The notes below the pieces were generated by a model. That model was not told the origin of the DNA. It ran no database searches and saw nothing but the letters and a program-made list of their open reading frames with translations. Positions 3,919 to 21,122 of a DNA stretch of 21,248 nucleotides are shown one piece after another. This stretch comes from a virus. Both the position numbers and the translations under genes were made by a program. Position 1 is the stretch's first letter; every line of letters begins with the position of its first letter. The stretch is from positions 1 to 21,248 of IMG/VR virus record IMGVR_UViG_3300011113_000354; one strand, written 5' to 3'.

Positions 3919-4572
3919 TTAGACAGTTAATTTAGTTATTATAAAAGGAACAGTTATACGAGCTCCTGAATCTCTACCCTCTATAGTTAAAGTAGCAGTT
4001 AATTGAGTATTCGTAGTCCCAAATAAGGTATTAATAGTAGTAGCTCTAACACTAATAGTAGTTCCTACTACAGTTTTAGATATTGAAGTTCCTAAAGTAG
4101 GGGTTTGATTCAAGGCTTGGGCTTGTGGAGTGTTAATTCCTAATCCTTCAAATGTAGAAAATAATCTAATATCTGAAATAGTAGCTGTATAACCGCTAGA
4201 TTCAACTGTATTACCTCCTAAATAATTTAAGGTTTGGGGTGTAATAGCTATGGAAGCCCCTTGTTGTAAATTATATGAAGAATTTATACCTCCTATAATT
4301 GGCATTTTAGCTGTTCCTCTAGGCAATGTAACTAATTTATATTTCATAGTTTGTGTTTCTATAGGAAAAGCTTCAAGTAAAGGCATATTTTCAATAGCTT
4401 CACCATAATATGCTGAACCTGAGGGGTGGGTTGGATTATATAATGTATAATCAATTTCATCGTCTGCCAAAGCAAACTGCGTTATATTAAAATTTCCTTG
4501 TGAAAGAAGTTGACGACCTTTTGAAGTTAAAATGGCGTCTACAGTTACTACTGAGTTATCTAGGTATCCCAT
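3919..4572 (-). CDS. Conserved phage structural protein of unknown function (217 aa)
   Basis: The protein starts MGYLDNSVVTVDAILTSKG. Its N-terminal half is well ordered, with the segments FALADDEIDYTLYNP (37-51), GSAYYGEAIENMPLLEAFP (52-70) and KYKLVTLPRGTAKMP. The C-terminal half is a Ser/Thr-rich beta-like domain. I recall similar N-termini among structural genes of uncultured marine T4-like phages, but no function is known to me. It is preceded by the widest gap among the structural genes (40 bp), which contains a candidate late promoter, so it may start a second late transcript covering the fiber-end genes. No signal peptide or membrane segment is seen. Confidence 0.6.
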   Translation of the reverse strand: MGYLDNSVVTVDAILTSKGRQLLSQGNFNITQFALADDEIDYTLYNPTHPSGSAYYGEAIENMPLLEAFPIETQTMKYKLVTLPRGTAKMPIIGGINSSYNLQQGASIAITPQTLNYLGGNTVESSGYTATISDIRLFSTFEGLGINTPQAQALNQTPTLGTSISKTVVGTTISVRATTINTLFGTTNTQLTATLTIEGRDSGARITVPFIITKLTV

Positions 4573-4584
4573 TTGTTAAATTTT

Positions 4585-4605
4585 GTGTGTTTTATTATAA
4601 ATATG
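4585..4605 (-). promoter_or_regulatory. Candidate late promoter upstream of the 217-aa gene
   Basis: On the minus strand the motif CATATTTATAA (4605-4595) lies 22 nt upstream of the ATG at 4572, followed 4 nt later by ACACAC (4590-4585). The same two elements occur upstream of the 109-aa gene at 17653. T4-like phages use a single -10-like element read by the gp55 sigma, and a gp55-like gene is present here. If TATTTATA is that element, transcription would start near the ACACAC. AT-richness makes chance matches likely, so this is a hypothesis. Confidence 0.35.
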
Positions 4606-4612
4606 TATATTT

Positions 4613-7075
4613 TTAATTTTGTGTTTGTGCTCTAAGTAAAGATACAATTTTTTCTTTAGTTTCAGTTGCTTTTTCTCCCAAAAACTCAGGAACTAATACT
4701 CCATCACTAGTTTGCCCAGCAGGTTTAGTAATATCTAATATTACATTTCCAGGATCATATACATATCTTCTCAAAAGAAAATAATCTAAATTTGTACCAT
4801 TAGGTATATTATTGTCTAGGTTAAGCTGTAATTGACCGGTTGCGGATTGGGTTACATTAGTAATAGTAAATGATAAATTTTCTAATCCTTGAAATCTTAT
4901 TTCATCGTTAGATTGAGGATTAAAATCTAGTGTAATAGGGTCAAATCCGCTATTAATAATATCTTTTTGCCTAAATCCTATAAATTGATTTAAGCCTCCG
5001 GCAGATACAGATCCTGTATTGGCTAGTAATATATTAGGGGAAGATCCAGTTACCCAAAATAAAGTACAACTAGTAGAAGTTTGATTAAAAGAAGCTGCAG
5101 GGTATTGTTTTACTATAAAAGTAGGTTCATCTAATATTAAAGATTGTCCTGGGGGGATATCAGGAGCTATAACTGCTAATCTGTATAAAGATGAGGTAGT
5201 AGCATTTCTTTCAGTATAAGCAAATTGACTATTAGCAGTACTAGTATATTGAGTACCTCCTTGTCGTGGAGGATTATTTGAAATTATTTCACCTGTATAT
5301 ATAACTTGTGGAGATGTAAATAAAATACTCCAACTACTTCCTCCATTTGTAGATTTTTGTAAAATATATGTAATTTTGCTACCATTAAAAGTAGATCTAG
5401 TTTTCATATCAAAAGAAAAATACAGTATGTACCCTGAAGAAGAAAGACTTCCTAAAGATCCTGTTGGCTGATACCAGTATTGTACCGGAGATGATCCTGA
5501 AAAGAAACTAGCAGAATTACCTATACTTTGAAGAGATGATCTAGACGATCCAAAAGGTATTATATATGTGCCTGATGCATCCGGTGGTATACTAAATGTT
5601 ATATTTCCTCCTTCGTTTGCGGTAGCTATTGTTAAATTTTTAGCTCCTAAAACATATGCACTATAGTTATTTGACCCTGTAGATAAAATTTGCCCATCAG
5701 GTTGAGTGAAATTTATAGACCCTGTAAAACCAAATCCTATAACATTACCGTTGTTATTATAACTAGCAGTTTGAGTATAAAGTACAGGTTTAATTCTTTG
5801 ACCTGCTCTAAATATAGGTACAGTGTTGTTTACCGAATCTAAATTAACTCCAAACGAATCAGGGTTAGTTAAGAGTAAAGTAGCATTACTTCCTCCAAAA
5901 GTTTGTTCAAGAATCCCTAAATTTATTCCTTTTTGATCTGAAACCGGAATAATTTCAGTCCCATTTTCATCAATAATATATTTAATACTAACGTTTGTTT
6001 TTCCAACATTAGTATTTCCCCATTCAGGAGTAGTTCCTGCTAACCAATTAAATCTTACAAAATATGATTTTGGATTAGATACATTTGGGGTTTTACCAAA
6101 AGCAGTATCGGTACTAGACCAAACATTAAATCTAGCAGATTGTAATTGTTTTCCAATATATCTTGAACTTATATTTTTAAGTGAACTATAATTTGAATCT
6201 TGAACTGAAGCTGGAGTAGCAGAACCGGATAGTATGGCTATCCTGTTAATAGGAACAAATGGATTATTAGCATAATCTACATCCATAAATTCTGTACTAA
6301 GTCTATTTTCAGAAGCGTTGTTAATAATAGCGTTGTAATCCGAATTAACAAACGGGGTTGTAATGTATGGTTCTAGGATGGTTTGGGTACCTATGCCTGC
6401 TACTGGAGAAATAGATTGGGTAAATGATAAACTAGCAGTATTGATATTAAAATTAAAACTAGAAAAATTACCTATATATAATTGATATTGTTGTCCTTCT
6501 ATTGGGGTAAAAGAGCCACTAAAAGTAAAAGTAGAAAGAGAAGTAGCATAATCACTATACCCCCCACCCGGTATAAATTCTAAAGCTGTTCCTTGATTAT
6601 TTAATAATGCTATAGCAGCATATACTCTAGTAGAATTTGAAGATCCATCCCATTGCACCGAAGCAGTATATGTTAAAGGAATATTAGGAGTATTCCCTAA
6701 AGTATATATTCCTGTAGTAGGATTAAAATAATTTAAATTATCAATAGATTCAGTAAGATTTGTAAGATATACTTCATTCCCATTATTCATAATAAAACTA
6801 ACATTTCTACTAGCACTTACCCTATAATTCAATATCTGATTATTAGTGCTAGATGTTATATTAGTAGTAACTATCTGATATAAGAAATATGGACCATTCA
6901 GAGATGAACTCGGGTATTCTGTTATAGTAGCTATGGGGTATTCTATGATACCTGCATCGTTAGTTCTAATTCTAATTTTATCTAATTCACGTAATGAAGT
7001 ATAATTATCATTCCCGTTAGCATCGTAACGAGCTATTTTTATATATTTGACTCCTAATCCTATGTACGACCCCAT
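4613..7075 (-). CDS. Large virion structural protein (820 aa), beta-rich
   Basis: The N-terminus (MGSYIGLGVKYIKIARYDAN, then SLRELDKIRIR) resembles a domain seen at the start of other phage virion proteins. The bulk is a long series of Ser/Thr/Asn-rich segments with alternating hydrophobic residues, suggesting stacked beta-sandwich domains that could bind carbohydrate. The C-terminal ~60 residues (YFLLRRYVYDPGNVIL, then a Lys/Glu-rich end ATETKEKIVSLLRAQ) look like a helical tail that could anchor or trimerise the protein. No peptidase or hydrolase motif was found. It lies between the 1212-aa tail protein (10 bp upstream) and the 217-aa gene, so a tail or baseplate-fiber role is likely but not proven. 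The exact T4 counterpart is unclear. Confidence 0.6.
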   Translation of the reverse strand: MGSYIGLGVKYIKIARYDANGNDNYTSLRELDKIRIRTNDAGIIEYPIATITEYPSSSLNGPYFLYQIVTTNITSSTNNQILNYRVSASRNVSFIMNNGNEVYLTNLTESIDNLNYFNPTTGIYTLGNTPNIPLTYTASVQWDGSSNSTRVYAAIALLNNQGTALEFIPGGGYSDYATSLSTFTFSGSFTPIEGQQYQLYIGNFSSFNFNINTASLSFTQSISPVAGIGTQTILEPYITTPFVNSDYNAIINNASENRLSTEFMDVDYANNPFVPINRIAILSGSATPASVQDSNYSSLKNISSRYIGKQLQSARFNVWSSTDTAFGKTPNVSNPKSYFVRFNWLAGTTPEWGNTNVGKTNVSIKYIIDENGTEIIPVSDQKGINLGILEQTFGGSNATLLLTNPDSFGVNLDSVNNTVPIFRAGQRIKPVLYTQTASYNNNGNVIGFGFTGSINFTQPDGQILSTGSNNYSAYVLGAKNLTIATANEGGNITFSIPPDASGTYIIPFGSSRSSLQSIGNSASFFSGSSPVQYWYQPTGSLGSLSSSGYILYFSFDMKTRSTFNGSKITYILQKSTNGGSSWSILFTSPQVIYTGEIISNNPPRQGGTQYTSTANSQFAYTERNATTSSLYRLAVIAPDIPPGQSLILDEPTFIVKQYPAASFNQTSTSCTLFWVTGSSPNILLANTGSVSAGGLNQFIGFRQKDIINSGFDPITLDFNPQSNDEIRFQGLENLSFTITNVTQSATGQLQLNLDNNIPNGTNLDYFLLRRYVYDPGNVILDITKPAGQTSDGVLVPEFLGEKATETKEKIVSLLRAQTQN

Positions 7076-7085
7076 TTTGTTTATT

Positions 7086-10000
7086 TTAAAATCCGCTAAA
7101 TTTAACCTGTTGATTTACATCTCTATAACTTCCAGTATCGTATAATAAATATATTTCTCCATTATTTGGTGAAGTATTTATATTTAAGAAATTATCACCA
7201 GGCACTATATTAGTATTATAATACGAAGCAGTGTAAGCTAAGGCTACAGTACTTGGATTTAAAAATGGATTTCCACCATTCAAATCTCCATCTGTAACTA
7301 ATATACGTGAACCACTTAATTCCCCATTATAAAATTCTATTTGAGAAGATTGTATAAAGGGTATCGAACCACTAGGTCCTATATTAGATCCACTCCAACT
7401 TTGAGTTATACTAAAATTATAGCTAGAAGGTAATATTATACCCGATGTTGCTCCTTTTAGATCAGGAAATGAACCAGCATTACTTCCTGTAATTCTATAC
7501 ATTTGAATCCCCGCCCCTGAAACTAACAAATTTTGAAACATAAAAGGTGAGTTCCAAGTTATATTACTACTTCCACTTCCTTGTGTTGCTATAGGGGTTC
7601 GAGTAGTTGCTTGGGGGGTTGGGTATTTATTTCTTTCAAGTAAATGTTGTTTTATAACAATACCTGTAGATACTCCTGCCCTAGCAGGAACAAAATCTTT
7701 TATTAATTTGAATAATGAATTATCAAAGTATTTAATTAATCTAATAAAATCATTATAGTTATAATTTTGAATATATTTTTGAAAATAATTATTTCTTAAA
7801 GAATCTAAATCGGAATACGATTGAGCGGATGATGATACTAACCTAGGATCACCTATATATTCCCCTATATTAAAGAACCCAATTTGTGAAGTAATATCGT
7901 CGTTTATTTCGTTTTGAGGTGAAAATGCTACTTCAACATAATTCACGTCTCTTGTATAACTTTGACTTATCGGATAGTCTTGCTGTACGGAATCAAATGT
8001 AGAGAGTACCTTGTTATCGGGTATGTTAGGTAAACTACTATTGTAAGGTATTAAAGTATTTTGTATTTTAATTTTATCCGATATAGGATTTTTTATACCT
8101 GCTGGAAATTGATCGAAAAATATAGATTGACTGTTTGCAGTAAATGTAGGGGTACTGTTAAAGCTAAAATTACTATTATTTACAAACGATGAAGTAGTAG
8201 CCCAGGATCCTGTCACTTTAGGGTGTATTGAGGTTGAACCAGTATATAATTCTCCACCTAAAGATGCTCTAAAAGCAAGTTGATTTGGTCCTTGATTTGT
8301 TCCGTTTCCTTCAATGGAATTAGGGTTCATTACATAATCGTCAAATACACTTTCGCTTATGCGAGTACTGTAGTACCTGATTTCTTGAAATGAACCTGAA
8401 AAATTGTTATAATTTGTTAAGCTTGATGTTCCAAAGAATGAAGTATTAGTTGCTATCCATATTGGATTATCCCCTGCTACTGAGCTAGAAGCCTGAAATC
8501 CTAATTGATTTCCGTCGTACCCACTATAGATTGAATTTTTAGCAAACAATGTAAAAGTACTGCTACTAACAAGTGCTACAGACCACCACCCACTATCATA
8601 AAATGGTAAATACACGCTTGCAGATGTACTTAAACTTGCTGTATTTGGTATAAAATCTAATTTTGCATATTGGTAGTAGGGGTCTATGGTTGATCCTGAA
8701 TAAGAAGCACTAGTATACCCTGATCCTGTATAAGTTAAAATAATAGTAGCTCGACCACTAGACCCAGAAATTGACCATAAACTTTGAGATCTAGGTATAT
8801 TAGATGTAGGTAGTCCGTTAGTTTTAAACCTGAACATTAAAGTTGCAGGAACGTTATTAGGGGCTGCCCAATTTGAATTTAAATTCCAAGAAGATGAAAT
8901 AAAGTTATTCCCGTTTTGTTTATAGGCATAATTATATTGATCATACCAATAATCCCAATCATTAGCATTATTTTTATCCTTCCCCCCATACTCATTTATT
9001 CGTAGTATTGTATCAGGGATACCATAAGATGTAATTAAATCTTTTAACCCCTCTACTGTTCCTTTTTTCTTAAGTAATAAAGGTAAATTATGATATAAAC
9101 GTTTATATAATCTTTTATTAATATCGTCTAAAGGTATACCACTATTAGACGAAGTGACATATTGATTTATATATTCAAAATCCGTAGGAGTAGGAAGAGA
9201 ACTTGTAGTATTAGGAAATAGTAATAAACTACCTTGAGAAGTAAGTCCTAAAAGTGAAGTATATATATTATTATCACTAAAGTTATTTTGATATATATTA
9301 ATACCTGTATCTCTTAATGCTTGAGCTACTATATCTTTTGATATACCATAATCTATTCTATTATCAGCATTAAATTTATTAGGTATATCTTTAATATAAA
9401 TCCAAATACTATCAAATAGTTGACCTAACATATCAACAAACAAATTAAGATTATCGTTATTTGGATCTTCTCTTAAATACCCAGGAATAGCATTTATTAA
9501 AATATTTTGATTATCTAGATCGTATAAAGAAGCAGATGTTAAACTGTTTGTTAACCAAGTAGCTACACTTCCTGTAGAACTTAGAATATAAGGTTTTGTA
9601 GTATTAGTTTTAGGATAAGCATATGAACTACTCTCATAATACAAATAATATTCATACCCATCAAAATTAGTAATTAAATCATCAATTTTATTTTCTATAA
9701 TAGTTTTACTTCCTAAAACAGCTAAAGACGATGAAGTAGACCCAGTAATTTGAGTATTAATTTTATTAATATCGTTTTGATAAGATTCAATTAATGAAAC
9801 TTTATCATAAAAATTATTTATCCTCTGTTCTGCACTTGAAAAAAATACAAAGCTATTATAATCTGTATAATCTACATTAATTTCTATTCCTTTTTCTTCT
9901 AAAATACTATTTAAGTTATATAAAGGTTTTCTAGAACCTGATAAACTTATATTAGCTGAGCCTGTTAAGGTATTATAATTTATATATTGGGTAGAATTAT

Positions 10001-10724
10001 TAACTTGGTTTTTTAAATTAATGTTAATATTAGGTCCTTTTAATTTAATATTATCATCAACAAAGTCAAAAACAGTATTAATATCTATATTATATGCTAA
10101 AGGGTCAGATAATTGTTCTACAATCCAACACTCACTTTTTAAATCAAATTCATCAGGGAGGGGCTCATATAGTTTTATTAATATTGTAGGATCTCCAGGA
10201 TTAGAATTATCTAATAAAATATTATTAGCTATTACTAATTGATTATTTCCAAAATCTAAATAAAAATCAAAATAATCTGCCTGAGATTCTTGGATTTGCT
10301 GAATAAAGTTATTAACTGAAGAAATTAAATTTTCATTAGATATAACTGTAGTATTTAATCTAACCTCAGTTCTATCTGAGCTAATTTCATCTATATAGTA
10401 TCTATCTAAAGGGGAAGAAAATAAGAGTTTTCGTAAAAAATTATATACAGTATTGTATTGCCCTACAGAGTATCCAGATGACTTTAAGTCATTTTCGGGA
10501 TCAATTGTAACCTTATTATCAACTAAAATATAATTAGAAAAATTTACGTTTCCCGCAATTATATCATTATTTAAATTATATATAAAATATTCTAAATAAT
10601 CTGTAGCAGAATTAAATGATACATTAACTTCATTAGATATAATTAATGAAGTATCTGAAACAGAATAGTTCTGTAATTCAAATGTTGTGGGGTCAATGTT
10701 TTGTATGTTAACTATTTCCGCCAT
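7086..10724 (-). CDS. Large mosaic tail protein with tail-protein-I-like core and LamG-like lectin domain
   Basis: At 1212 aa this is the largest protein in the window. Residues 1-300 are Asn/Asp-rich with no recognised domain. Residues about 297-350 form a likely helical linker. Residues 425-480 (FVDMLGQLFDSIWIYIKDIP) and 540-581 (RLYHNLPLLLKKKGT, then GLKDLITSYGIPDTILRINE and YGG) resemble a motif of phage tail protein I-like baseplate proteins. Residues about 615-800 read as a concanavalin/LamG-like jelly roll (SLWSISGSS, WWSVALV, FQEIRYYSTRIS), a fold often used for glycan binding. Near residue 1005 is SLFKLIKDFVPARAG, then HLLERNKYP. It probably joins the baseplate to a receptor-binding or adhesion domain. 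Its start overlaps the end of the 138-aa gene by 17 bp, suggesting coupled translation. Confidence 0.62.
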   Translation of the reverse strand: MAEIVNIQNIDPTTFELQNYSVSDTSLIISNEVNVSFNSATDYLEYFIYNLNNDIIAGNVNFSNYILVDNKVTIDPENDLKSSGYSVGQYNTVYNFLRKLLFSSPLDRYYIDEISSDRTEVRLNTTVISNENLISSVNNFIQQIQESQADYFDFYLDFGNNQLVIANNILLDNSNPGDPTILIKLYEPLPDEFDLKSECWIVEQLSDPLAYNIDINTVFDFVDDNIKLKGPNININLKNQVNNSTQYINYNTLTGSANISLSGSRKPLYNLNSILEEKGIEINVDYTDYNSFVFFSSAEQRINNFYDKVSLIESYQNDINKINTQITGSTSSSLAVLGSKTIIENKIDDLITNFDGYEYYLYYESSSYAYPKTNTTKPYILSSTGSVATWLTNSLTSASLYDLDNQNILINAIPGYLREDPNNDNLNLFVDMLGQLFDSIWIYIKDIPNKFNADNRIDYGISKDIVAQALRDTGINIYQNNFSDNNIYTSLLGLTSQGSLLLFPNTTSSLPTPTDFEYINQYVTSSNSGIPLDDINKRLYKRLYHNLPLLLKKKGTVEGLKDLITSYGIPDTILRINEYGGKDKNNANDWDYWYDQYNYAYKQNGNNFISSSWNLNSNWAAPNNVPATLMFRFKTNGLPTSNIPRSQSLWSISGSSGRATIILTYTGSGYTSASYSGSTIDPYYQYAKLDFIPNTASLSTSASVYLPFYDSGWWSVALVSSSTFTLFAKNSIYSGYDGNQLGFQASSSVAGDNPIWIATNTSFFGTSSLTNYNNFSGSFQEIRYYSTRISESVFDDYVMNPNSIEGNGTNQGPNQLAFRASLGGELYTGSTSIHPKVTGSWATTSSFVNNSNFSFNSTPTFTANSQSIFFDQFPAGIKNPISDKIKIQNTLIPYNSSLPNIPDNKVLSTFDSVQQDYPISQSYTRDVNYVEVAFSPQNEINDDITSQIGFFNIGEYIGDPRLVSSSAQSYSDLDSLRNNYFQKYIQNYNYNDFIRLIKYFDNSLFKLIKDFVPARAGVSTGIVIKQHLLERNKYPTPQATTRTPIATQGSGSSNITWNSPFMFQNLLVSGAGIQMYRITGSNAGSFPDLKGATSGIILPSSYNFSITQSWSGSNIGPSGSIPFIQSSQIEFYNGELSGSRILVTDGDLNGGNPFLNPSTVALAYTASYYNTNIVPGDNFLNINTSPNNGEIYLLYDTGSYRDVNQQVKFSGF

Positions 10725-11124
10725 TGGTTGATAAAGATGATATTACAGATGATATATTATTTGATTGTTGATTTGATAATTCTAAAACTTGTTGTTGTAA
10801 TTCGTTATTTTCTTCTCGCAATTGGTTTACTTCTTCTGTTAAAGCTTCTATTAAAGGGTCAACTGTTTCATTTCCAATATATTCTTTACTTGTTCTAATT
10901 AAATATTCATGTGAATTTATTTCTCCTAATTTTGGAATATCAAAAAATAAATTTTGATATTGGTTAAAAAATTGATTAACCTGTACCTCAGTAGAAGGAA
11001 TAGAAGCCGCTACATTTTCGACACTAGGTGTAAAAACTAATTGACTAAACTGTGTATCAATTACTTTTGTGTATTGATTTTTATTATATACAGTTTTAGT
11101 TAAATTAACTATTTCTTTAGCCAT
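10708..11124 (-). CDS. Small structural protein with C-terminal coiled coil (138 aa)
   Basis: The N-terminal ~85 residues form a polar domain with TEVQVNQFFNQYQNLFFDIP and NSHEYLIRTSKEYIG. Residues about 90-118 (LIEALTEEVNQLREENNELQ) are a clear heptad coiled coil, followed by a Ser/Asn-rich tail. The length and coiled coil suggest an oligomeric connector, perhaps linking the large tail protein encoded immediately downstream to the baseplate. Its start overlaps the 377-aa gene by 8 bp and its end overlaps the 1212-aa gene by 17 bp, so the three are probably translated together. I do not recognise a T4 counterpart. Confidence 0.6.
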   Translation of the reverse strand: MAKEIVNLTKTVYNKNQYTKVIDTQFSQLVFTPSVENVAASIPSTEVQVNQFFNQYQNLFFDIPKLGEINSHEYLIRTSKEYIGNETVDPLIEALTEEVNQLREENNELQQQVLELSNQQSNNISSVISSLSTNGGNS

Positions 11125-12250
11125 TGGTTACTTTAAATAAACAATTATTATCTAATACTTTTGTAGTTCCTCCTATAGTAGTTTGTACCAATATAGTATA
11201 ATACCTTTCAGGCTCCAACCCATTCATATAAATATCAAAATAATTACTATCTGAATCTGCACTTATTTTAGTATAAGTTGTATCAAAATCTATTACATAC
11301 TCATTTGTATCTAAATCTTTTATAGCATAATATGAAGCAGTAGGTAAATAATAGTTAGTAGTATAAATAGATGAGGTTTGAAATGTTCTAGTTGGGTATT
11401 GTGGTCTTACATTTAATCTAAATCTTTGTATACTTTCACTATAATACACTCCAGGATTATCTCCTAATGAAATATATACTTGGGGATTAGTTATTATGGT
11501 TTGAGTAGAGGAACCTGTATTCCATATAAAATCATCCCATTTAAATTCTAAACATGGAGGGTATATGGTGTGGGTATCTCTAGAAAAATATTTTAAAGTT
11601 ATTTGTTCATTAATATTATTTACAAATTCTTGAGAAGGATCTTGTCTAACAATAAATCCATAGTTAGGCCAAGCACTTCCAGTCCACTGTTGAATAATAG
11701 ATTTGACATCAAAATTTAAATCTAAACTTGAATAATATGAAAAAGACTGAGAAGCTTGAGAACCTGTCCACCATACTCCCCCTCCTGAAGAACTAGGATT
11801 AGCAGATAAATTATATGAACCTGTTGAATTTGCCCCAAACCCACTAGTTAACCAAGCATTACTTCCTGATTGGGTTCTCCATATCCAAGATACACCATTT
11901 TGAACCTCGGGATTATCTAAATAATGACCTGTTCCCATTTCCCAAGATTGAGATAGGGCATTTACTAATATTGTAGTAGTTTTGGTAAGTCCTTCAACGT
12001 TAGCTACATATAACTTTAAATTAGAAGCCCATTGATTAGTTCCTATTAAAGAAGCACTTACATATGTAATTTCATCAGAATCAAATTGAACTAAAAAACG
12101 GGAAGCTTGAGGATATTCTCCATTTGTTTCTGTAACTCCTGTTTTAAAATTAGTAGATGCTTCTAAAATCTCATCTATTCCTGTATTCATAGCAGGATAA
12201 GCCGAATATAGTGTAGCGTCTTGAGAAGGGAATATTTTATATACTGCCAT
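11117..12250 (-). CDS. Virion protein with DNRLRE-like beta domain (377 aa)
   Basis: The protein begins MAVYKIFPSQDATLYSAYP, followed by LEASTNFKTG and then ASRFLVQFD. This order of an early 'polymorphic attachment' strand, a glycine-containing turn and a repeated 'R-x-L-x-F' strand resembles the DNRLRE/CBM96-like jelly-roll domain of surface and carbohydrate-binding proteins. Further segments include LDLNFDVKSIIQQWTGS (near 175-192) and PPCLEFKWDDFIW (near 234). The last ~100 residues form a second beta-rich part. It lies just downstream of gp6 (9 bp gap), so it is probably a baseplate-attached protein. The domain assignment is from pattern memory only and needs a profile search; the structural role is supported by position. 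Confidence 0.58.
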   Translation of the reverse strand: MAVYKIFPSQDATLYSAYPAMNTGIDEILEASTNFKTGVTETNGEYPQASRFLVQFDSDEITYVSASLIGTNQWASNLKLYVANVEGLTKTTTILVNALSQSWEMGTGHYLDNPEVQNGVSWIWRTQSGSNAWLTSGFGANSTGSYNLSANPSSSGGGVWWTGSQASQSFSYYSSLDLNFDVKSIIQQWTGSAWPNYGFIVRQDPSQEFVNNINEQITLKYFSRDTHTIYPPCLEFKWDDFIWNTGSSTQTIITNPQVYISLGDNPGVYYSESIQRFRLNVRPQYPTRTFQTSSIYTTNYYLPTASYYAIKDLDTNEYVIDFDTTYTKISADSDSNYFDIYMNGLEPERYYTILVQTTIGGTTKVLDNNCLFKVTNG

Positions 12251-12259
12251 TTTATGTTA

Positions 12260-14116
12260 TTATAAAGGTACTACTCTGCCTTGAATATCTGTATTTGGAT
12301 ATTTTACTTCAAATATCATAGGGTCAAGTGAAGGATATACTACATTATCTTTTGTAGCTCCTGCGGTATCATACGAGTATTGACTATATCCTAAACTTGT
12401 ACCTACTTTATTTGTAATTGCTATATTTTTAACTGTTTGAACCCCTTCAATTCTATCTAATAAGATATAAACATCTCTAAGGATTATAGGTTGATTGATT
12501 TGCCATTTATCTATTGCAAAATAATCTTGCAATGCTGTTATACATTTAGATAATATTTCGTTTGAGTTATAGTTAGGTAATACTATAATGTCAAAATTTA
12601 ATCCAATATTAATAATAAAGGCATCTTTAACTCTAATAGAATCCCCAATTATTCTATGTTGGGATAAATAGGTAGTTAAATTTTGCTTTAAAGTAGTAGT
12701 GGTAGTAGTTAAATTTTTGCTTATATTATAAGTTAAAATATATAAATCTAATGTAGTAGGTATTTCACCTAATCCTGTATTTTGTAACTTAGTAGGTTCA
12801 ATAAAAGCTTTAGCTATATTACCATATTTAGAGGGCATAGATAAAGCTCTAACCAAATAATCATTAGCTGTTACATTTCTTAATTGGGTAGAAAAATTAG
12901 CTATAGCATTTTGTCTAATATCTTCAATAGTATCACCATCATTCCCCCCATCAGCTGCCTCAGGGTTATTAATTGCTAATGAAGCAAATACTTGATTAGC
13001 GGTTGATGTGGTTAAATTTGTAACTTTAAATACTGGATTACCTGAAAAATTATTAATAGAATTAGCAGAAACATTTGCTGTTACCCCACCTCCTGTTAAA
13101 TACCTAACTGTTAAAGTTGTATTTGAAGGAGCTATACCATATGTTTTGGTAAACATAAAATTTGTAGGATCATAAGCTGTATTAAGCTTATTTCTTTCAA
13201 ATAATAATCCTAATCCTATATTATCAGAATTTGGGATAATTTCTTCATCATTATCATTAACATTCCCTGCTCCAAATTGTAGTTGTAGTGTAGTTTCATT
13301 TAAAACTCTTGTAACAAATCTTCTTTGAACTTTTTTAAGTTTTAATAAATAGGGAACATCACCTGAATTATTAGAATTATTAGGATCATTTGGGTTAGAA
13401 TTACGAATTGAATCGTATACATTTTCTTGAGCTAAATAATCTACCTCATACCATACATTACCATTACTATCAGTTATATCCAATATACCTATAATTCTAT
13501 CGGCATTAATTTCTACTGTAGCAAATTCTGTAGGAGAACTAAAAGAAAAAGTAGTAGTATTAATAGTAGCTGATATGGCTTTTCTAGACTTTTTTAGTAA
13601 AAATAAAGTAGGAGAATTTCCTGAGATCTGGTATACTGATACTTCTGTAGGATCTGAAGAACTAGATACAGAAAAATCTATGTCGTCTTGAACTAAAAAA
13701 CTTGTAGGTGAAACTAAATTAGTAGAAACTATTGAGTTTTGTGGTATATATAAAGCATAATCATAGTCTGGGACTTGTTCTGCCCCTGAGGTTTTAGCAG
13801 GAACTTGTTGATAAAAATCAACTGTAACAGCAGCTACACCGGTTACATTTGGTTTATACCCAAACATATAAGCTAATTGATACAAATTATTAGATTGTCT
13901 TGCAAATTGTAAATAATTCTCCTGAACTTGATTGTCGATATAAAATGATAAAATATCACCTACATATGAAGCCATTTCCATAAACATCATCCCAGGGGAA
14001 GATGGAGAAAAATCGTTATATGTTGTAGGAAAATAAGTACGAGCATAATTAATTAAATTAGCTCTTAACTCATTAAAATCCTTATTTATATAAGTTATGT
14101 TTTTATTAGCTGCCAT
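12260..14116 (-). CDS. gp6: Baseplate wedge protein, gp6-like (baseplate J family)
   Basis: This 618-aa protein is close in length to T4 gp6 (about 660 aa). The N-terminus carries a conserved-looking block, YINKDFNELRANLINYAR (9-26), DFSPSSPGMMFMEMASYVGD (35-54) and FYIDNQVQENYLQFA, typical of gp6-like proteins of T4-like phages. The baseplate J-like core follows, with DTIEDIRQNAIANFSTQ (near 393-409) and then NVTANDYLVRALS and YGNIAKAFIE. In T4, gp6 dimers connect wedges and, with gp25 and gp53, form the inner ring that changes shape when the sheath contracts. The gp25 stop overlaps this start in a TAATG junction, and the 377-aa protein follows. This is one of the firmest calls in the window. 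Confidence 0.86.
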   Translation of the reverse strand: MAANKNITYINKDFNELRANLINYARTYFPTTYNDFSPSSPGMMFMEMASYVGDILSFYIDNQVQENYLQFARQSNNLYQLAYMFGYKPNVTGVAAVTVDFYQQVPAKTSGAEQVPDYDYALYIPQNSIVSTNLVSPTSFLVQDDIDFSVSSSSDPTEVSVYQISGNSPTLFLLKKSRKAISATINTTTFSFSSPTEFATVEINADRIIGILDITDSNGNVWYEVDYLAQENVYDSIRNSNPNDPNNSNNSGDVPYLLKLKKVQRRFVTRVLNETTLQLQFGAGNVNDNDEEIIPNSDNIGLGLLFERNKLNTAYDPTNFMFTKTYGIAPSNTTLTVRYLTGGGVTANVSANSINNFSGNPVFKVTNLTTSTANQVFASLAINNPEAADGGNDGDTIEDIRQNAIANFSTQLRNVTANDYLVRALSMPSKYGNIAKAFIEPTKLQNTGLGEIPTTLDLYILTYNISKNLTTTTTTLKQNLTTYLSQHRIIGDSIRVKDAFIINIGLNFDIIVLPNYNSNEILSKCITALQDYFAIDKWQINQPIILRDVYILLDRIEGVQTVKNIAITNKVGTSLGYSQYSYDTAGATKDNVVYPSLDPMIFEVKYPNTDIQGRVVPL

Positions 14117-14523
14117 TATGTAAATTCAAGTTGAATAGTATCTACTACACTAGTATCTATAACATTATATGTTAAATTGACTAATATAGAATTATAGTCA
14201 TTATTAGGTAAAATTTGTAAATCTTGAACTAATACAGTAGGAAAGAATGATTTTATTTGAGATTCAATATTTTCTTTTAAAAACTCTATATTTCCACTTG
14301 TTATTTGCTCAAATATAAAAGCTCTTAACCCCGATCCAAAATTAGGATTTAAATATCTTTCAGAAGGATTAGTAAGAAAAAAATTAATTAAATTATTTTT
14401 TATTGCATCTTTACTAACATAGGTTGAATTAAATACACCAGGGGTATTAAATAATATAGATACACCTAGTGCTGTACTAGGTTTAAAATCTATAGGATTT
14501 ATTATACGTGCCCCAAATGCCAT
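14116..14523 (-). CDS. gp25: Baseplate wedge protein, gp25-like
   Basis: At 135 aa this matches the size of T4 gp25 (132 aa). The core motif ERYLNPNFGSGLRAFIFEQ lies at residues 55-73, the conserved 'ER..P.FG..L..F.FE' pattern of the gp25/TssE (GPW_gp25) family. It is followed by a helix (NIEFLKENIESQIKSFFP) and terminal beta strands (VNLTYNVIDTSVVDTIQLEF). In contractile tails and type VI secretion baseplates this protein nucleates sheath assembly at the wedge. Although once called a lysozyme, the family has no established lytic activity. TAATG stop-start overlaps join it to the 120-aa gene upstream and gp6 downstream, the same gp25-gp6 order seen in many contractile tails. Confidence 0.86.
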   Translation of the reverse strand: MAFGARIINPIDFKPSTALGVSILFNTPGVFNSTYVSKDAIKNNLINFFLTNPSERYLNPNFGSGLRAFIFEQITSGNIEFLKENIESQIKSFFPTVLVQDLQILPNNDYNSILVNLTYNVIDTSVVDTIQLEFT

Positions 14524-14885
14524 TATTTATTTCCTTTCATTAGTCCCATTATCATATCTAATCCTACATTTCCTGAGGGTAAAGCTGAACCTTCACCTAT
14601 AGTATCCATACCAGGCCTTACTTGTAAAGTATTAGCCATGATAGAGGTATCATTAGAATTAAAAGATAAAGTATCTTGCCCTGGTGTAAAATCTCCCATT
14701 ATAGCTTGCATCATAGCGCGTTTGTCTATTTTAGGAGCAGAAGAAATAGTAGGAGTTTGAATTTGTTCTGTAACTACAGCTGCTTTAGAAGCACGAACTG
14801 CTTCGAGAAGAATATCTTTAAGTTCTTCTTGAATTGCTTCTCTTACAGCTTCTTTAATGATTTTTTTAAAGTCTTGGGTTTTCAT
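14523..14885 (-). CDS. Small baseplate-module protein of unknown function (120 aa)
   Basis: The N-terminal 35 residues (MKTQDFKKIIKEAVREAIQE, then ELKDILLEAVRASKA) form a strongly amphipathic charged helix. The rest is a low-complexity, Met/Gly/Ser-rich region containing KRAMMQAIMGDFTPGQD and a final NVGLDMIMGLMKGNK. This resembles a helix followed by a flexible tail with short binding motifs, as in assembly chaperones or linkers, but no family is recognised. It lies between the 391-aa protein and gp25. Its stop overlaps the gp25 start (TAATG), so it is co-translated with core baseplate genes. The ATG at 14885 is 2 nt downstream of an ATATTTATAA stretch that partly resembles the candidate late promoter. 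Confidence 0.55.
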   Translation of the reverse strand: MKTQDFKKIIKEAVREAIQEELKDILLEAVRASKAAVVTEQIQTPTISSAPKIDKRAMMQAIMGDFTPGQDTLSFNSNDTSIMANTLQVRPGMDTIGEGSALPSGNVGLDMIMGLMKGNK

Positions 14886-14901
14886 GATTATAAATATTAA
14901 A

Positions 14902-16077
14902 TTAGTAAGCTTTTAAATTATCTCTGTCAATAATAAGTTTAAGTTCTTCAATTAATGTTTGAGGGTTAGTGGTAAAAGATAAAGGAGTTTCTATAAGTTT
15001 AATTCCACTTTGATTAATTCCAACTGCTTTTCTACGGATAACAGTAGGATTAAATGGCACTTCTTCAATTTCTATTATAAATCCTTGGTATGAAGTTTGA
15101 TTTAAAGTTTCTTCTGCTATTTCTTGTCTGTTATTTATATTTTGTAAATCTTCTGAAATAGGAGTTAGTTCATCTTTTATATTATTTTCTATTAAACATT
15201 TAAGTAAGAAAATATCTAATATTCTTAATAATAAAATTGCTGTATTAATAGTAGTACTAATTACAGCTATAGGAGGAGCAACTGAATTTATAGCAGATTC
15301 TAATTTATCTATTTTTGGGGTTCCTGTTAGAGTATATTTTTGTTGTTCTGCTATTATATCAATTTCGGACAAAGCACTTTGTAAACCAGCAGGTAATCTT
15401 AAAGGAGGAACAAATAATGATAACTGTTTTCCTACTATTAAAATGCTTAATTTAATTCCTCTTAAAGTTTTTAATATAGATTTAGATATTCTTAAACCAA
15501 TAGAAGCAATTGTTAAAGCAACTGTTATAGTTTGTAAAATTTGAGCTATTTTTTCTAACGAACCTAATAAATTATTTCTTATATTAATAATATTTTTTAA
15601 AACAGGTTGTGGGGGGCAAGAAGGGGGAAATAAGATAATTAAAGTTGCCAATATTGATTTCCTTTGTTCAAAAGAAATGGTTTTAAGATTAATTTTTCCT
15701 GTAAATACATCCTCAATAAGTTTAGGATCAACAGAAGTAAGTTCACCTCCTAAATCACTTCCTAATTTAATTATTGAGGGTTTAGAAAAATCTTTTTTTA
15801 TAACAAAGTTTAATACAATAGGTCTAACATTAAGTTTACTTATTATAAGATTTGTTATAGTAGGGATAATAAGATTTTTAATTTGGGATATTTGTTTATT
15901 TATAATATTAGGAAGTTTTTCAATTCCCTTAGGTTTTAAAGCATTAGGTAATGAATTAAAAACAACATTAGGATCTGTTGTAGTTAATTTGATATTCAAA
16001 TCATTCTGTAAAGCTTTATCTTTACTAGCCTGACTAAGAATATCAGCTTGTTGAATATTAATTTTTTTAATTTCCAT
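14902..16077 (-). CDS. Hydrophobic helical baseplate-region protein of unknown function (391 aa)
   Basis: The protein is Ile/Leu-rich and mostly helical. Hydrophobic stretches lie near residues 140-150, 178-195 and 265-297 (AVISTTINTAILLLRILDIF), with a proline-cysteine patch PPSCPPQP at 151-158. The C-terminal part (IIEIEEVPFNPTVIRRKA, then LIETPLSFTTNPQTLIEELK) looks like a small beta domain and is the most conserved-looking part. The hydrophobic helices could form a pore-lining or membrane-contacting element, or pack within the hub. T4 has no obvious single counterpart, and it is too short for a tape measure of a typical T4-like tail. It sits between the spike and gp25, joined to the spike gene by a TAATG junction. 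Confidence 0.55.
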   Translation of the reverse strand: MEIKKINIQQADILSQASKDKALQNDLNIKLTTTDPNVVFNSLPNALKPKGIEKLPNIINKQISQIKNLIIPTITNLIISKLNVRPIVLNFVIKKDFSKPSIIKLGSDLGGELTSVDPKLIEDVFTGKINLKTISFEQRKSILATLIILFPPSCPPQPVLKNIINIRNNLLGSLEKIAQILQTITVALTIASIGLRISKSILKTLRGIKLSILIVGKQLSLFVPPLRLPAGLQSALSEIDIIAEQQKYTLTGTPKIDKLESAINSVAPPIAVISTTINTAILLLRILDIFLLKCLIENNIKDELTPISEDLQNINNRQEIAEETLNQTSYQGFIIEIEEVPFNPTVIRRKAVGINQSGIKLIETPLSFTTNPQTLIEELKLIIDRDNLKAY

Positions 16078-17324
16078 TATGCTGTTCTTACACGTTTAGA
16101 TAATAAAGTATAAGGATTTAATTTAGAAAGAGTATCAGTTAGTTGACTAGCTGCTTGACTAGTTAAAACTAATTTTCCGCCTCCTGGGGGTACTATATCT
16201 GCTGACAATGCAAAAGATAAATTAGATAACTGAGTTAGCAGTTTATTTAGTAGTTCAACTGTTTGTTCACCTAATAAAACAGGTTCAGTTTTATTTTTAC
16301 TACCTAAATAAACCCCACCTTCATTTTCCCAAGTAGTAGTAGACAAAACAATAGGACCCGTTGTTTCTGCATTTATACTATTAACTGCATTTAAATTAAT
16401 AGATTTTTTAGAGGTTAATAATAGATGATCTTCAGTAGTATTAAATACTAATCTACCTGAGTTTAGTATTATTTGTTTACCTAAATAATCTTTAGGGGAT
16501 TGTGGAGGATTTGAATTGTAACTAACATAATTATTAGTGCTAGCAACATTTATAGGAATTTTTTGGGTTGAGGTTAAATAAATAGAAGAATCATCTTTAT
16601 TTATGTCTTCTATTGTAGGCAACCACCCTTCCTTACGCTTATCTCCTTGCCCATTTCTTAAAATAATTATAGAATCTCCATCATCCCCAGATGTTGACCA
16701 AGTATTAAAACGTTCTTTTACTGTGGAACCAAATCTAATACTATTACCCCATCTTCCTTCTAGTATAATATCTCCTTCAAAAGGTAAAAGAGGATGAATA
16801 TTAGAACGTTCTTTAAATGTTTTCCCTAAATCTATATCAGTATCATTATCGCTAACTCTTCTTACATTTCCAGCACCCACTAAAGGATAATCCCGTTTTG
16901 AATTTTCAGATAAATCTTCATTATTTAAAATATTAGGGATAGCATTATGGTGGGGATGATTCCATATTGAAATAGGAGGAAAATAATAAATTTCAGCATC
17001 CCCTGAATTTTCATTTACATCTGAGTTAGCTAATCTAATACAATAAACTAGTTCATTTTTTAATGGGTATATTTTTATATTAGGAAATAAGGGTTTAGCT
17101 AATGGATAATTTAACTCATTTTGTATAGAATCATCTACATTATTAAAAACTATACTACCTAAACCATTCCATTCTCCTGCTTCTGCAAATCTAGGGTGAG
17201 AATTATCTAAAATAATATCAACAACTCGAGCATCAAATGTTTTTGATTTTAAAGAATCAAAGAGATTATTTAAACCTCTACTTTGTCCTTTTCTAGAAAA
17301 CCCATATTTGGCTCCTACACTCAT
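16077..17324 (-). CDS. Central spike/baseplate hub protein, gp5-like, without lysozyme domain
   Basis: Residues about 30-130 look like an OB-fold domain with a long loop (FDARVVDIILDNSHPRF, ELVYCIRLAN, FPPISIWNHPHHNAIPN). Residues 182-201 (FEGDIILEGRWGNSIRFGST) match a segment common to gp5-like and VgrG-like spikes. Residues 282-345 (GKQIILNSGRLVFNT, SINLNAVNSINAE, GGVYLGS) have the alternating short-strand pattern of a beta-helical needle. Such proteins sit at the centre of the baseplate and puncture the outer membrane. T4 gp5 (575 aa) has a lysozyme domain between its OB fold and needle; this 415-aa protein has no recognisable one. Its TAATG overlaps with the 109-aa and 391-aa genes on either side place it in a tightly coupled baseplate operon. 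Confidence 0.7.
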   Translation of the reverse strand: MSVGAKYGFSRKGQSRGLNNLFDSLKSKTFDARVVDIILDNSHPRFAEAGEWNGLGSIVFNNVDDSIQNELNYPLAKPLFPNIKIYPLKNELVYCIRLANSDVNENSGDAEIYYFPPISIWNHPHHNAIPNILNNEDLSENSKRDYPLVGAGNVRRVSDNDTDIDLGKTFKERSNIHPLLPFEGDIILEGRWGNSIRFGSTVKERFNTWSTSGDDGDSIIILRNGQGDKRKEGWLPTIEDINKDDSSIYLTSTQKIPINVASTNNYVSYNSNPPQSPKDYLGKQIILNSGRLVFNTTEDHLLLTSKKSINLNAVNSINAETTGPIVLSTTTWENEGGVYLGSKNKTEPVLLGEQTVELLNKLLTQLSNLSFALSADIVPPGGGKLVLTSQAASQLTDTLSKLNPYTLLSKRVRTA

Positions 17325-17653
17325 TACTCAGATTTAAATTTATTTATTTCATTAAGTAACTGTTGTTTTTCTTCTTCGGATATACCCAAAGATTCTCCAC
17401 CTTGATTACTCATCGCGCGTTGAGCTAGTGCCGCCATTTTAATGAGTAAATCATCATTTTTAACACCAATTTCCATATATTCCTTAATTAGGGGGACTAT
17501 AAGAGTAGCGTCACCTATTTCTTCAATCATAGGTTTAAGTTCACCAATAAGTGCAGTGACTTGTTTATCTTTTTTCTTTTGGTTTTCGTATATTTCTTCT
17601 AAAATATTAGCAAATGTTTTTTTACCAAATACAACTTTATCAAATTGATTCAT
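17324..17653 (-). CDS. Small helical protein at the start of the structural module (109 aa)
   Basis: The protein is almost wholly charged helix: FGKKTFANILEEIYENQKKK (9-28) and then LIGELKPMIEEIGDATLIVP. It continues with AALAQRAMSNQGG and EEEKQQLLNEINKF near the end. I know of no named domain, but similar small proteins seem to precede spike genes in related uncultured phages. It could be an assembly chaperone or a hub-associated factor. It is the first gene after the sigma factor, behind a 32-bp gap containing the candidate late promoter, and its stop overlaps the spike start (TAATG). These two facts make it a likely first gene of the late structural operon. Confidence 0.58.
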   Translation of the reverse strand: MNQFDKVVFGKKTFANILEEIYENQKKKDKQVTALIGELKPMIEEIGDATLIVPLIKEYMEIGVKNDDLLIKMAALAQRAMSNQGGESLGISEEEKQQLLNEINKFKSE

Positions 17654-17666
17654 ATCTATATTATTA

Positions 17667-17683
17667 GTGTGTTTATAAATATG
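17667..17683 (-). promoter_or_regulatory. Candidate late promoter at the head of the structural operon
   Basis: The minus strand holds CATATTTATAA (17683-17673) directly followed by ACACAC (17672-17667), 19 nt upstream of the ATG at 17653. The same pair occurs at 4585-4605. The site lies in the gap between the sigma gene and the first structural gene, where a late promoter would be expected. The resemblance to a gp55-type single element is an inference; in T4 the late element is TATAAATA, whereas here it is TATTTATA on the coding strand. Confidence 0.38.
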
Positions 17684-17685
17684 AC

Positions 17686-18399
17686 TTACCCAAATTTCGT
17701 ATATCCGTTTTCTAAATAAAATGAATAGTTTTTCTTAAATATTGAATTTAAATGATTAGCTATTTTAGTGATGCGAGGAGTCTTTACATCAATTTGTTCT
17801 CTAATATAAATGTAAAGAGCTTTTTTATTAAAAATATCAATGTCTTCTCTTTTTCTAAACAATTCTAAAATAGCATCTGCTACTTGGGCATCGTCTTTTT
17901 TGGGAAATAATTTAAATATATTATCAGTACAATATAAAACATATAAATCTATAAACCCTGAAAGTTTATCATCTATAGTATCATGTACTTGTTCTTCTAA
18001 AGAATAAGTATGAGATTCGTCTTCTTCTAATTCTGTAATTTCAACTTTATCTATTCTATGTTTATAGTTTTGAGTATTAGATAATATTAAATAACGTTTT
18101 GCTATTGTCCCAAAATATGAGTATGCTTTGGCTCCCTTAGAGGGATCAAATAAATGTATTTTAGAAAGAAGAAATGTTATTACTTCGTGTTGTAAATCTT
18201 CAATATTTTCAACTTCGGTATAATAAAATTTAAAAGTATGAATTATATTTTCGGTTAATTTAAAGAAAGGATAGTGAATATGTCTACTATAAATTAAACT
18301 TCGAATATATTCATCCGTTGTATTATTATATTTAACAATAGCATCTTCAGTATCCTGTGTAAAATATTGTGTACCTTTTTTAGGTTCTATTCCTATCAT
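17686..18399 (-). CDS. gp55: Late-transcription sigma factor, gp55-like
   Basis: This 237-aa protein contains a sigma-70 region 2-like block at residues about 60-115: EDLQHEVITFLLSKIHLFDP (67-86), KGAKAYSYFGTIAKRYLI (88-105) and a basic stretch NYKHRIDK. The 'F.P.KGA....Y....A.RY' pattern is characteristic of gp55-type late sigma factors. T4 gp55 is 185 aa; this one is longer. A C-terminal segment (TPRITKIANHLNSIFKKNYS, 207-226) could be a degenerate helix-turn-helix. The protein would bind host RNA polymerase core and direct it to late promoters, in T4 with help from the sliding clamp. It overlaps the 97-aa gene by an ATGA junction and lies directly upstream of the structural genes it would activate. 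Confidence 0.72.
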   Translation of the reverse strand: MIGIEPKKGTQYFTQDTEDAIVKYNNTTDEYIRSLIYSRHIHYPFFKLTENIIHTFKFYYTEVENIEDLQHEVITFLLSKIHLFDPSKGAKAYSYFGTIAKRYLILSNTQNYKHRIDKVEITELEEDESHTYSLEEQVHDTIDDKLSGFIDLYVLYCTDNIFKLFPKKDDAQVADAILELFRKREDIDIFNKKALYIYIREQIDVKTPRITKIANHLNSIFKKNYSFYLENGYTKFG

Positions 18400-20143: not shown

Positions 20144-20182
20144 ATATACATTTCTTGGAAAAGTAATATTTATTTAAGTTAG

Positions 20183-20256
20183 TAGGAGAAGCGGGACTCG
20201 AACCCACAACCTCGTGCTCCCAAAGCACGTAATCTAACCAATTGATATATTCCCCT
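20183..20256 (-). tRNA. trnP-UGG: tRNA-Pro(UGG)
   Basis: The transcript folds with acceptor AGGGGAA/TTCTCCT, anticodon stem CGTGC/GCACG around loop TTTGGGA (anticodon TGG), and T arm GTGGG/CCCGC with TTCGAGT. Discriminator is A, followed by CTA, so CCA is not encoded. D-stem position 10-25 is a T-T mismatch. It is the last gene of the array. Confidence 0.92.
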
Positions 20257-20262
20257 ATAGTG

Positions 20263-20336
20263 CGGTTCGTATGGGAATCGAACCCATGACCTTTGCAGTG
20301 ACAGTGCAATATTGTACCCAACTCTACTAACGAACC
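20263..20336 (-). tRNA. trnD-GUC: tRNA-Asp(GUC)
   Basis: Acceptor GGTTCGT pairs with ACGAACC. The anticodon stem is TTGCA/TGCAA around CTGTCAC (anticodon GTC). The T arm is ATGGG/CCCAT. Discriminator G matches the usual Asp identity. The D stem (GTAG/CAAT) has one mismatch. The next bases are CAC, so CCA is not encoded. Confidence 0.93.
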
Positions 20337-20340
20337 ATTG

Positions 20341-20413
20341 AGCGATAAACAGGACTCGAACCTGCAACCTCCGACTTGGAAGGACGATGCTCTACCAATT
20401 GAGCTATTATCGC
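20341..20413 (-). tRNA. trnG-UCC: tRNA-Gly(UCC)
   Basis: Acceptor GCGATAA/TTATCGC, D stem GCTC/GAGC, anticodon loop CTTCCAA (anticodon TCC) and T arm GCAGG/CCTGT are all present. Discriminator is T, usual for Gly. The anticodon stem TCGTC/GTCGG has a T-T mismatch. It is one of two Gly tRNAs in tandem, followed by CAA, not CCA. Confidence 0.93.
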
Positions 20414-20419
20414 AAATTG

Positions 20420-20492
20420 AGCGGCAAACTGGATTCGAACCAGCGACCCTAACCTTGGCAAGGTTATGCTCTACCAACTGAGCTACTGCCGC
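20420..20492 (-). tRNA. trnG-GCC: tRNA-Gly(GCC)
   Basis: Acceptor GCGGCAG/TTGCCGC (one G-T pair), D stem GCTC/GAGC, anticodon stem TAACC/GGTTA around TTGCCAA (anticodon GCC) and T arm GCTGG/CCAGT fold perfectly. Discriminator T fits Gly. With the adjacent UCC gene it covers most glycine codons. Confidence 0.94.
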
Positions 20493-20497
20493 AACTG

Positions 20498-20570
20498 AGC
20501 TTCTTATCGGATTCGAACCAATGACCATCCGCTTACAAGGCGGGAGCTCTACCAACTGAGCTAAAGAAGC
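20498..20570 (-). tRNA. trnT-UGU: tRNA-Thr(UGU)
   Basis: Acceptor GCTTCTT/AAGAAGC, D stem GCTC/GAGC, anticodon loop CTTGTAA (anticodon TGT) and T arm ATTGG/CCGAT are present. The anticodon stem CCCGC/GCGGA has one C-A mismatch at its base. Discriminator is T, followed by CAG. Confidence 0.93.
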
Positions 20571-20576
20571 ATTTTG

Positions 20577-20650
20577 TGGACCGTACCGGATTCGAACCGA
20601 TGACCTTCTGAATGCAAATCAGACGTTCTAGCCAACTGAACTAACAGCCC
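20577..20650 (-). tRNA. trnA-UGC: tRNA-Ala(UGC)
   Basis: Acceptor GGGCTGT/ACGGTCC carries G3-U70, the classic alanine identity pair, with discriminator A. The anticodon stem TCTGA/TCAGA surrounds TTTGCAT (anticodon TGC), D stem GTTC/GAAC, T arm ATCGG/CCGGT. CCA is not encoded. Confidence 0.95.
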
Positions 20651-20655
20651 TTTTG

Positions 20656-20729
20656 TAGCGGGTGAGGGATTCGAACCCCCGATTCCTGGCTTATGAGACC
20701 TGGCGGATAGACCACTTCCATAACCCGCA
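20656..20729 (-). tRNA. trnM-CAU: tRNA-Met(CAU), possibly initiator-type
   Basis: The best fold has acceptor TGCGGGT opposite ACCCGCT, so position 1-72 is an unpaired T-T followed by six pairs, with T8 in its normal place. An unpaired 1-72 is the hallmark of bacterial initiator tRNAs. The anticodon loop is CTCATAA (anticodon CAT). The anticodon stem (CAGGT/GCCAG) has two G-C pairs and one T-G next to the loop, not the full GGG/CCC of a standard initiator, and one A-A mismatch. It could be an initiator-like, elongator or lysidine-modified Ile tRNA; the CAT anticodon alone does not decide. Confidence 0.85.
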
Positions 20730-20738
20730 ATATATTTG

Positions 20739-20813
20739 TACTCCGTACGGGACTCGAACCCGTAAGCTTTCCCGTGAAAGGGGAATGTCCTAAACCAATT
20801 AGACGAACGGAGC
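20739..20813 (-). tRNA. trnE-UUC: tRNA-Glu(UUC)
   Basis: Acceptor GCTCCGT/ACGGAGT ends in a G-T pair. D arm GTCT/GGAC, anticodon stem TTCCC/GGGAA around CTTTCAC (anticodon TTC) and T arm ACGGG/CCCGT are intact. Discriminator is A. The next bases are CAA rather than CCA. Confidence 0.93.
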
Positions 20814-20824
20814 GTATTGATTTG

Positions 20825-20896
20825 CGTCCTGAGTAGGGGTCGAACCTACGGCCTAGCGGTTAACAGCCGCTTGCTCTACCACTGAGCTATCAAGAC
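20825..20896 (-). tRNA. trnN-GUU: tRNA-Asn(GUU)
   Basis: Acceptor GTCTTGA/TCAGGAC, D stem GCTC/GAGC, anticodon stem AGCGG/CCGCT around CTGTTAA (anticodon GTT) and T arm GTAGG/CCTAC are intact. Discriminator G is usual for Asn. CAA follows. Confidence 0.94.
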
Positions 20897-20902
20897 AAAT
20901 GG

Positions 20903-20985
20903 TACCGAAGGCGAGACTCGAACTCGCAATGCTATATAGCGCTGGTTTCTAAGACCAGTGTGACTACCAATTCCACCACTTCGGC
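20903..20985 (-). tRNA. trnL-UAG: tRNA-Leu(UAG)
   Basis: This is a class II tRNA with acceptor GCCGAAG/CTTCGGT, anticodon stem CTGGT/ACCAG around CTTAGAA (anticodon TAG), a long variable arm (CGCTATATAGC) and T arm GCGAG/CTCGC. Discriminator is A. It is the only gene in the array followed by an encoded CCA (20902-20900). Confidence 0.93.
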
Positions 20986-21014
20986 ATAAATATACAAAAT
21001 AAATTTTAATTATC

Positions 21015-21022
21015 CAAATTTA
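21015..21022 (-). promoter_or_regulatory. Possible Bacteroidota-type -7 element in the tRNA array
   Basis: The 45-bp gap between the Ser and Leu tRNAs is the widest in the array. On the minus strand it contains TAAATTTG, which fits the TAnnTTTG -7 consensus of Bacteroidota housekeeping promoters. No matching -33 TTG at the right distance was found, so this is weak evidence for a second start inside the array. Confidence 0.22.
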
Positions 21023-21030
21023 TTTTTTTG

Positions 21031-21117
21031 CGGAAGATATTGGATTTGAACCAATGAACCAGTTACCCGATTAACACCTTAGCAGGGTGCCGCTTTAGAC
21101 CACTCAGCCAATCTTCC
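21031..21117 (-). tRNA. trnS-GCU: tRNA-Ser(GCU)
   Basis: This is a class II tRNA with acceptor GGAAGAT/ATCTTCC, anticodon stem GCACC/GGTGT around CTGCTAA (anticodon GCT), a long variable arm and T arm ATTGG/CCAAT with TTCAAAT. Discriminator G is usual for Ser. CAA follows. Confidence 0.93.
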
Positions 21118-21122
21118 TTTAG

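Follow-up and report, generated by a model that had tools for sequence, protein, structure and literature searches.

The octamer TATTTATA is most likely the late promoter element of this phage and of its clade (probability about 0.82). It would act as a single −10-type element, read in all likelihood by the phage's own sigma factor, with transcription starting at a purine and yielding both leadered and leaderless mRNAs. We infer promoter function in vivo from computed properties of the box, namely its conservation, position and orientation, its association with late genes, the lack of a −33 element and the bimodal spacing to the start codon. The DNA analyzed, referred to as the window, is an IMG/VR record of 21,248 bases, a fragment, and the motif counts given for it cover both strands.

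The sequence-only reading had described a motif 19–22 nt before two start codons, with ACACAC downstream. Both copies are exact: CATATTTATAA occurs precisely twice in the window, at 4595–4605 and 17673–17683, on the minus (coding) strand in both cases and never on the plus strand. The distances are 22 nt to the ATG at 4572 and 19 nt to the ATG at 17653, and ACACAC follows each copy. The placing of one copy where the sigma gene meets the first structural gene also holds, since the box at 17674–17681 lies there and is conserved in relatives. A third copy, ATATTTATAA at 14888–14897, had been called partial and 2 nt from an ATG. Its end does stand 2 nt ahead of the ATG at 14885; it is not partial, being a full box at a recurrent spacing of 3–5 nt. 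ATATTTATAA occurs three times in sense orientation in the window and not at all in antisense. Comparison with relatives defines the core motif as (A/C)TATTTATA(A/T). Inclusion of ACACAC and of the initial C in the motif was considered and rejected, their conservation stopping at the closest relatives.

The core octamer is present five times in sense and seven times in antisense orientation, and three of the five sense copies lie within 40 nt upstream of a start. An exact box thus placed is found for 3 of the 20 window genes; among 5000 order-1 resamplings of the upstream regions, 4 reached three and none exceeded it. When up to two mismatches are allowed, the CATATTTATAA 11-mer shows no enrichment in the window (39 copies versus 47.5 expected). 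The AT-rich window on its own lends the motif modest support, and it is because of the relatives that the motif is near certain. The features are listed in Table 1.

Table 1. Putative late promoter boxes in the window, the genes they would serve and the candidate sigma gene.
Feature	Position	Strand	Remarks
Putative late promoter box TATTTATA	17674–17681	−	sigma/first-structural-gene junction; predicted start ~17670 (4th nt past box), leader 16–17 nt
First gene after sigma gene, 109 aa	17324–17653	−	probably served by box 17674–17681
Putative late promoter box TATTTATA	4596–4603	−	predicted transcript start ~4591–4592, leader ~20 nt
Structural-type gene, 217 aa	3919–4572	−	probably served by box 4596–4603
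Putative late promoter box TATTTATA	14889–14896	−	3 nt ahead of ATG; predicted start = A of AUG (14885), leaderless
Gene of predicted leaderless mRNA, 120 aa, N-terminus MKTQDFKKIIKEAVREA	14523–14885	−	ORF and homologs
Candidate late sigma factor, 237 aa	17686–18399	−	sigma-70 region 2 and conserved C-terminal helical domain

The window sigma is 45% identical to a relative in Flavobacterium phage immuto, 37% to one in Microcystis phage Mel-JY01 and 42% to one in the 484-kb jumbo phage LR756508, and hundreds of IMG/VR contigs carry relatives of it. With the Mel-JY01 sigma as query, relatives among the viral contigs were not found. Eight long genomes or contigs were analyzed in full, comprising immuto, Mel-JY01 and six contigs of 79–175 kb.

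Between the sigma gene and the gene that follows it, almost all of 80 window-like loci carry TATTTATA or a close variant of it. Among 80 immuto-like loci, 63 carry TATTTATA and the remainder mostly TATTTATT. The bases flanking the box vary freely. Homologs of gene 3919–4572 have TATTTATA in 77 of 78 cases, 11–26 nt before the ATG; those of gene 14523–14885 have it in 77 of 78 as well, and TATAAATA, the T4 late box, is found in 0 of 78 in either set. An immuto gene with an upstream box, most likely the one starting at 90644, is of the same family as gene 3919–4572. Homologs of gene 17324–17653 keep the upstream box, in a leadered or a leaderless arrangement depending on the clade. Dozens of divergent relatives carry TATTTATA upstream of the homologs of both genes originally flagged. 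In LR756508, within the 50 kb around the sigma gene, TATTTATA is missing both from the regions ahead of genes and from the junction; the motif and the sigma family are therefore not coupled everywhere, and the specificity has an edge. No report of the motif was found in the open-licence literature.

The sense-strand density of TATTTATA in the 50 nt upstream of genes exceeds that inside genes 10–78 fold in all eight long genomes or contigs, whereas TATAAATA reaches only 1–10 fold in the same comparison. When all 8-mers were tested for upstream location, TATTTATA ranked first in immuto (24/28, p ~1e-25) and between second and ninth in the others, as a rule next to ATATTTAT, which overlaps with it. 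As a control, the same pipeline recovered TATAAATA from a 50-kb late region of T4, 14–28 nt from the ATG. The immuto boxes stand ahead of the terminase, portal, sheath, tube and tape-measure genes. A box is present for 17 of the 84 genes in the half of that genome devoted to virion and packaging functions and for 7 of the 148 remaining genes (Fisher p=5e-4), the latter being the seven sites outside the late half. None of the 29 genes of the cluster at 66–77 kb has one. The rarity of the box inside genes, its absence from that cluster and its excess in the late half support the original suggestion that it is a late promoter of shifted specificity.

The bases around the box point to where transcription would begin. 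In all 24 immuto sites the base preceding the box is A or C and the fifth base past it is A or G. Among 243 leadered sites of the clade, the preceding base is A in 86% and C in 12%, and a purine occupies the fourth base in 86% and the fifth in 91%. These purines suggest a transcription start at the fourth or fifth base, which would place the box at about −12 to −5; the T4 late box is located at −13 to −6 (PMC1524935). A conserved upstream block (−35/−33) was looked for in the immuto late sites and was absent.

In the mechanism proposed here, host RNA polymerase with the phage sigma encoded at 17686–18399 would most likely bind TATTTATA, with A or C before it, A or T after it and no −35/−33 element, and would initiate at the purine 4–5 nt downstream. 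An ATG at least 8 nt past the box would then give an mRNA with an A-rich leader. An ATG 3–5 nt past the box would give an mRNA that begins at the AUG or within one nucleotide of it, and is thus leaderless.

The spacing between box and ATG falls into two classes. Over 400 distinct sites, 4 have 0–2 nt, 107 have 3–5 nt and 3 have 6–7 nt, with a broad distribution from 8 nt up; taking one site per family (117 families), the three counts are 3, 19 and 0. The 3–5 nt spacing occurs in 21 families in all, the raw peak being dominated by few families, two of which give most sites, and the start codons of most of these families are ORF calls alone. With a spacing of 3 or 4 nt the A of the AUG falls exactly on the predicted start site. 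Among 49 distinct homologs of gene 14523–14885, the distance is exactly 3 or 4 nt in 47 and 12 nt in one, and one has no exact box; the window copy at 14889–14896 belongs to the short class. Boxes at 3–5 nt probably give leaderless late mRNAs that start on or next to the AUG. The gene after sigma has its box 20 nt from the ATG in the window; in another clade, where the N-terminus is the same, the distance is 3 nt. Because this gene shows both spacings, the leadered or leaderless class appears switchable with a fixed start codon.

Short-spacing boxes might instead serve only the genes farther downstream, with the adjacent gene expressed by read-through and the 3–5 nt simply inherited, so that no leaderless mRNAs would be made. 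This account is compatible with a promoter, and it is a possible one, helped by the fact that most short-spacing sites come from two families. It fits less well with 3–5 nt being found in 21 families and 6–7 nt in none (one site per family), or with the gene after sigma being leadered or short-spaced by clade while its start codon is unchanged.

The 14523–14885 protein and several late proteins of immuto and of the contigs G015–G020, which within a genome are otherwise unlike one another, have in common an N-terminal amphipathic stretch, MK..eLK..IkEei..eL. This stretch might serve in targeting, perhaps for entry into the head core; the pattern is loose and some matches are chance.

The immuto 66–77 kb cluster has promoters of another kind. 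About 15–20 near-identical copies, GTTG followed after ~22 nt by TATATTTAGGTATCAATAATTAAA, stand ahead of small unknown genes. GTTG lies ~22 nt ahead of TATATTTAG, which is itself 21–30 nt from the ATG, and the short-spacing class is absent. Judged from these promoters and the small unknown genes, the cluster is probably early. Its promoter resembles the Bacteroidetes −33/−7 type, for which the host consensus is TTTG/TANNTTTG (sigma-ABfr) (PMC6847099). The late box, too, could be imagined as a host −7 element of the TANNTTTG kind, read by the host sigma in an ordinary constitutive promoter, and the core ATATTTA is indeed common to it and the early box TATATTTAG. Such an origin is improbable. 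TTG occupies the −33 place in 18 of 18 TATATTTAG promoters and in 7 of 24 immuto late sites, where chance gives 18%, and the late box is missing from all 29 early-cluster genes. The published host consensus cited above also speaks against it, and the same box is enriched in the phage of a cyanobacterium, Microcystis, which is not a Bacteroidete host.

Other upstream-enriched motifs were seen in relatives. G018 and G019 have a second one, TTCGTATATTC, which may be their early promoter, and Mel-JY01 has AACAACCTAACAGGA.

That the box acts in the RNA, as a processing or translation element and not as a promoter, is more improbable still. The idea draws on the box being very near the AUG in many genes; the spacing nevertheless runs from 3 to more than 40 nt, at a fixed distance past the box there is a purine-rich position that resembles a start, and the early cluster lacks the box. 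In Mel-JY01, moreover, the boxes mostly lie 27–43 nt upstream of the ATG, with leaders resembling ribosome-binding sites in between.

A late promoter that works from the opposite strand, with T4 TATAAATA read normally, is hardly credible, although TATTTATA and TATAAATA are exact reverse complements. The box lies just upstream of coding-strand starts in a fixed relation to the ATG, and coding-strand TATAAATA is missing from both homologous gene sets (0/78). The context, with A/C ahead of the box and a purine 4–5 nt past it, follows the sense orientation, and antisense transcription would run backwards into the preceding gene. Aligned in one direction, the two boxes are identical except at two central bases, AA in TATAAATA and TT in TATTTATA.

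If TATTTATA is a late promoter, the protein encoded at 17686–18399 is the candidate to read it. It may be a sigma-70 region-2 factor, possibly gp55-like in its working, with homology to the gp55 family unsupported. Pfam Sigma70_r2 matched 25 of 33 members of the sigma family, with E down to 1e-4, the window protein being under the curated cut-off. An AlphaFold model built with 24 close relatives reached pLDDT 49, and a broader alignment raised the mean pLDDT to 76. In the latter model one helical domain lies at the N-terminus and another, which is conserved, at the C-terminus. Sigma factors make up most of the model's structural matches; those in the PDB are weak (E>0.05), and one strong match in the viral library is unnamed. 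PDB sequence searches with the sigma and with its C-terminal domain gave no useful match, and a region-4-like C-terminal domain is therefore not claimed. The profile comparison (hhalign) of T4 gp55 with the sigma family gave a probability of 0.9%, and immuto sigma matched PHROG 234 with E=0.5. The earlier label "gp55-like" is fair for the function (sigma region 2) and unsupported as a statement of descent.

T4-type late promoter activity depends on a gp55-like sigma, gp33 and the sliding clamp. A gp45-type sliding clamp is present in G019 and, by homology, also in G015 and G017; none was detected in immuto, Mel-JY01, G016 or G018. We consider it doubtful, though conceivable, that a self-contained late sigma, with region 2 and its own C-terminal helical domain, drives the TATTTATA regulon in a partly clampless clade, a fixed subset of late mRNAs being leaderless and the choice of start site setting the translation class. 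If true, this sigma would resemble the single-polypeptide late sigma that, according to the T4 review, has not been found (PMC2988020).

Other features of the window are all on the minus strand but one. Twelve tRNA genes (Pro, Asp, Gly x2, Thr, Ala, Met, Glu, Asn, Leu, Ser, His) occupy 20182–21195, upstream of the sigma gene region. A SegE-type GIY-YIG endonuclease gene (206–652; Pfam PF19835, E 7e-26) adjoins a tail-fibre-like gene. The gene at 663–1925 has repeated GAITSSGAISSSAGLFGTTLTTT-type units, and the long plus-strand ORF at 754–1491 is probably a mere antisense shadow of it.

For a large T4-like clade of mostly uncultured phages, which includes a cultured phage of Flavobacterium as well as a phage of Microcystis, the box supplies a late-promoter consensus of practical use, through which late genes may be recognized by their sequence alone. 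It would also represent a natural two-base shift of the late box beside a candidate sigma. Leaderless late mRNAs as predicted here are undescribed for T4-like phages in the open-licence literature found.

The closest known system is the T4 late promoter with gp55 (PMC2988020, PMC1524935). Both have a single 8-bp, −10-type AT box without a −35 element, virion genes downstream and a phage-encoded sigma with region 2, which in the present phage is a candidate. The T4 box is TATAAATA at −13 to −6, whereas the present one is TATTTATA, changed in the two central bases and predicted at about −12 to −5. The short-spacing, leaderless class predicted here is absent from the T4 late boxes of the 50-kb region tested. 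Homology to gp55 is unsupported by the profile comparison, and a gp45-type clamp was detected in only some of the relatives.

Aeromonas phage Aeh1, with the late promoter CTAAATA (PMC1524935), offers a precedent in that its late sigma has diverged and its late box is shifted; the change in Aeh1 is at the 5′ edge (−13/−12), while here it is at the box centre. Bacteroidetes sigma-ABfr promoters, TTTG/TANNTTTG (PMC6847099), are like the immuto early-cluster promoter and unlike the late sites, which use TATTTATA without a −33 element. In leaderless genes whose TA-like signal stands ~10 bp ahead of the start codon (PMC3160421), as would hold for the short-spacing sites, a −10 box a few nucleotides before the AUG implies that there is no leader; in the present case the box would belong to the late regulon of a phage, in which leadered and leaderless genes occur together.
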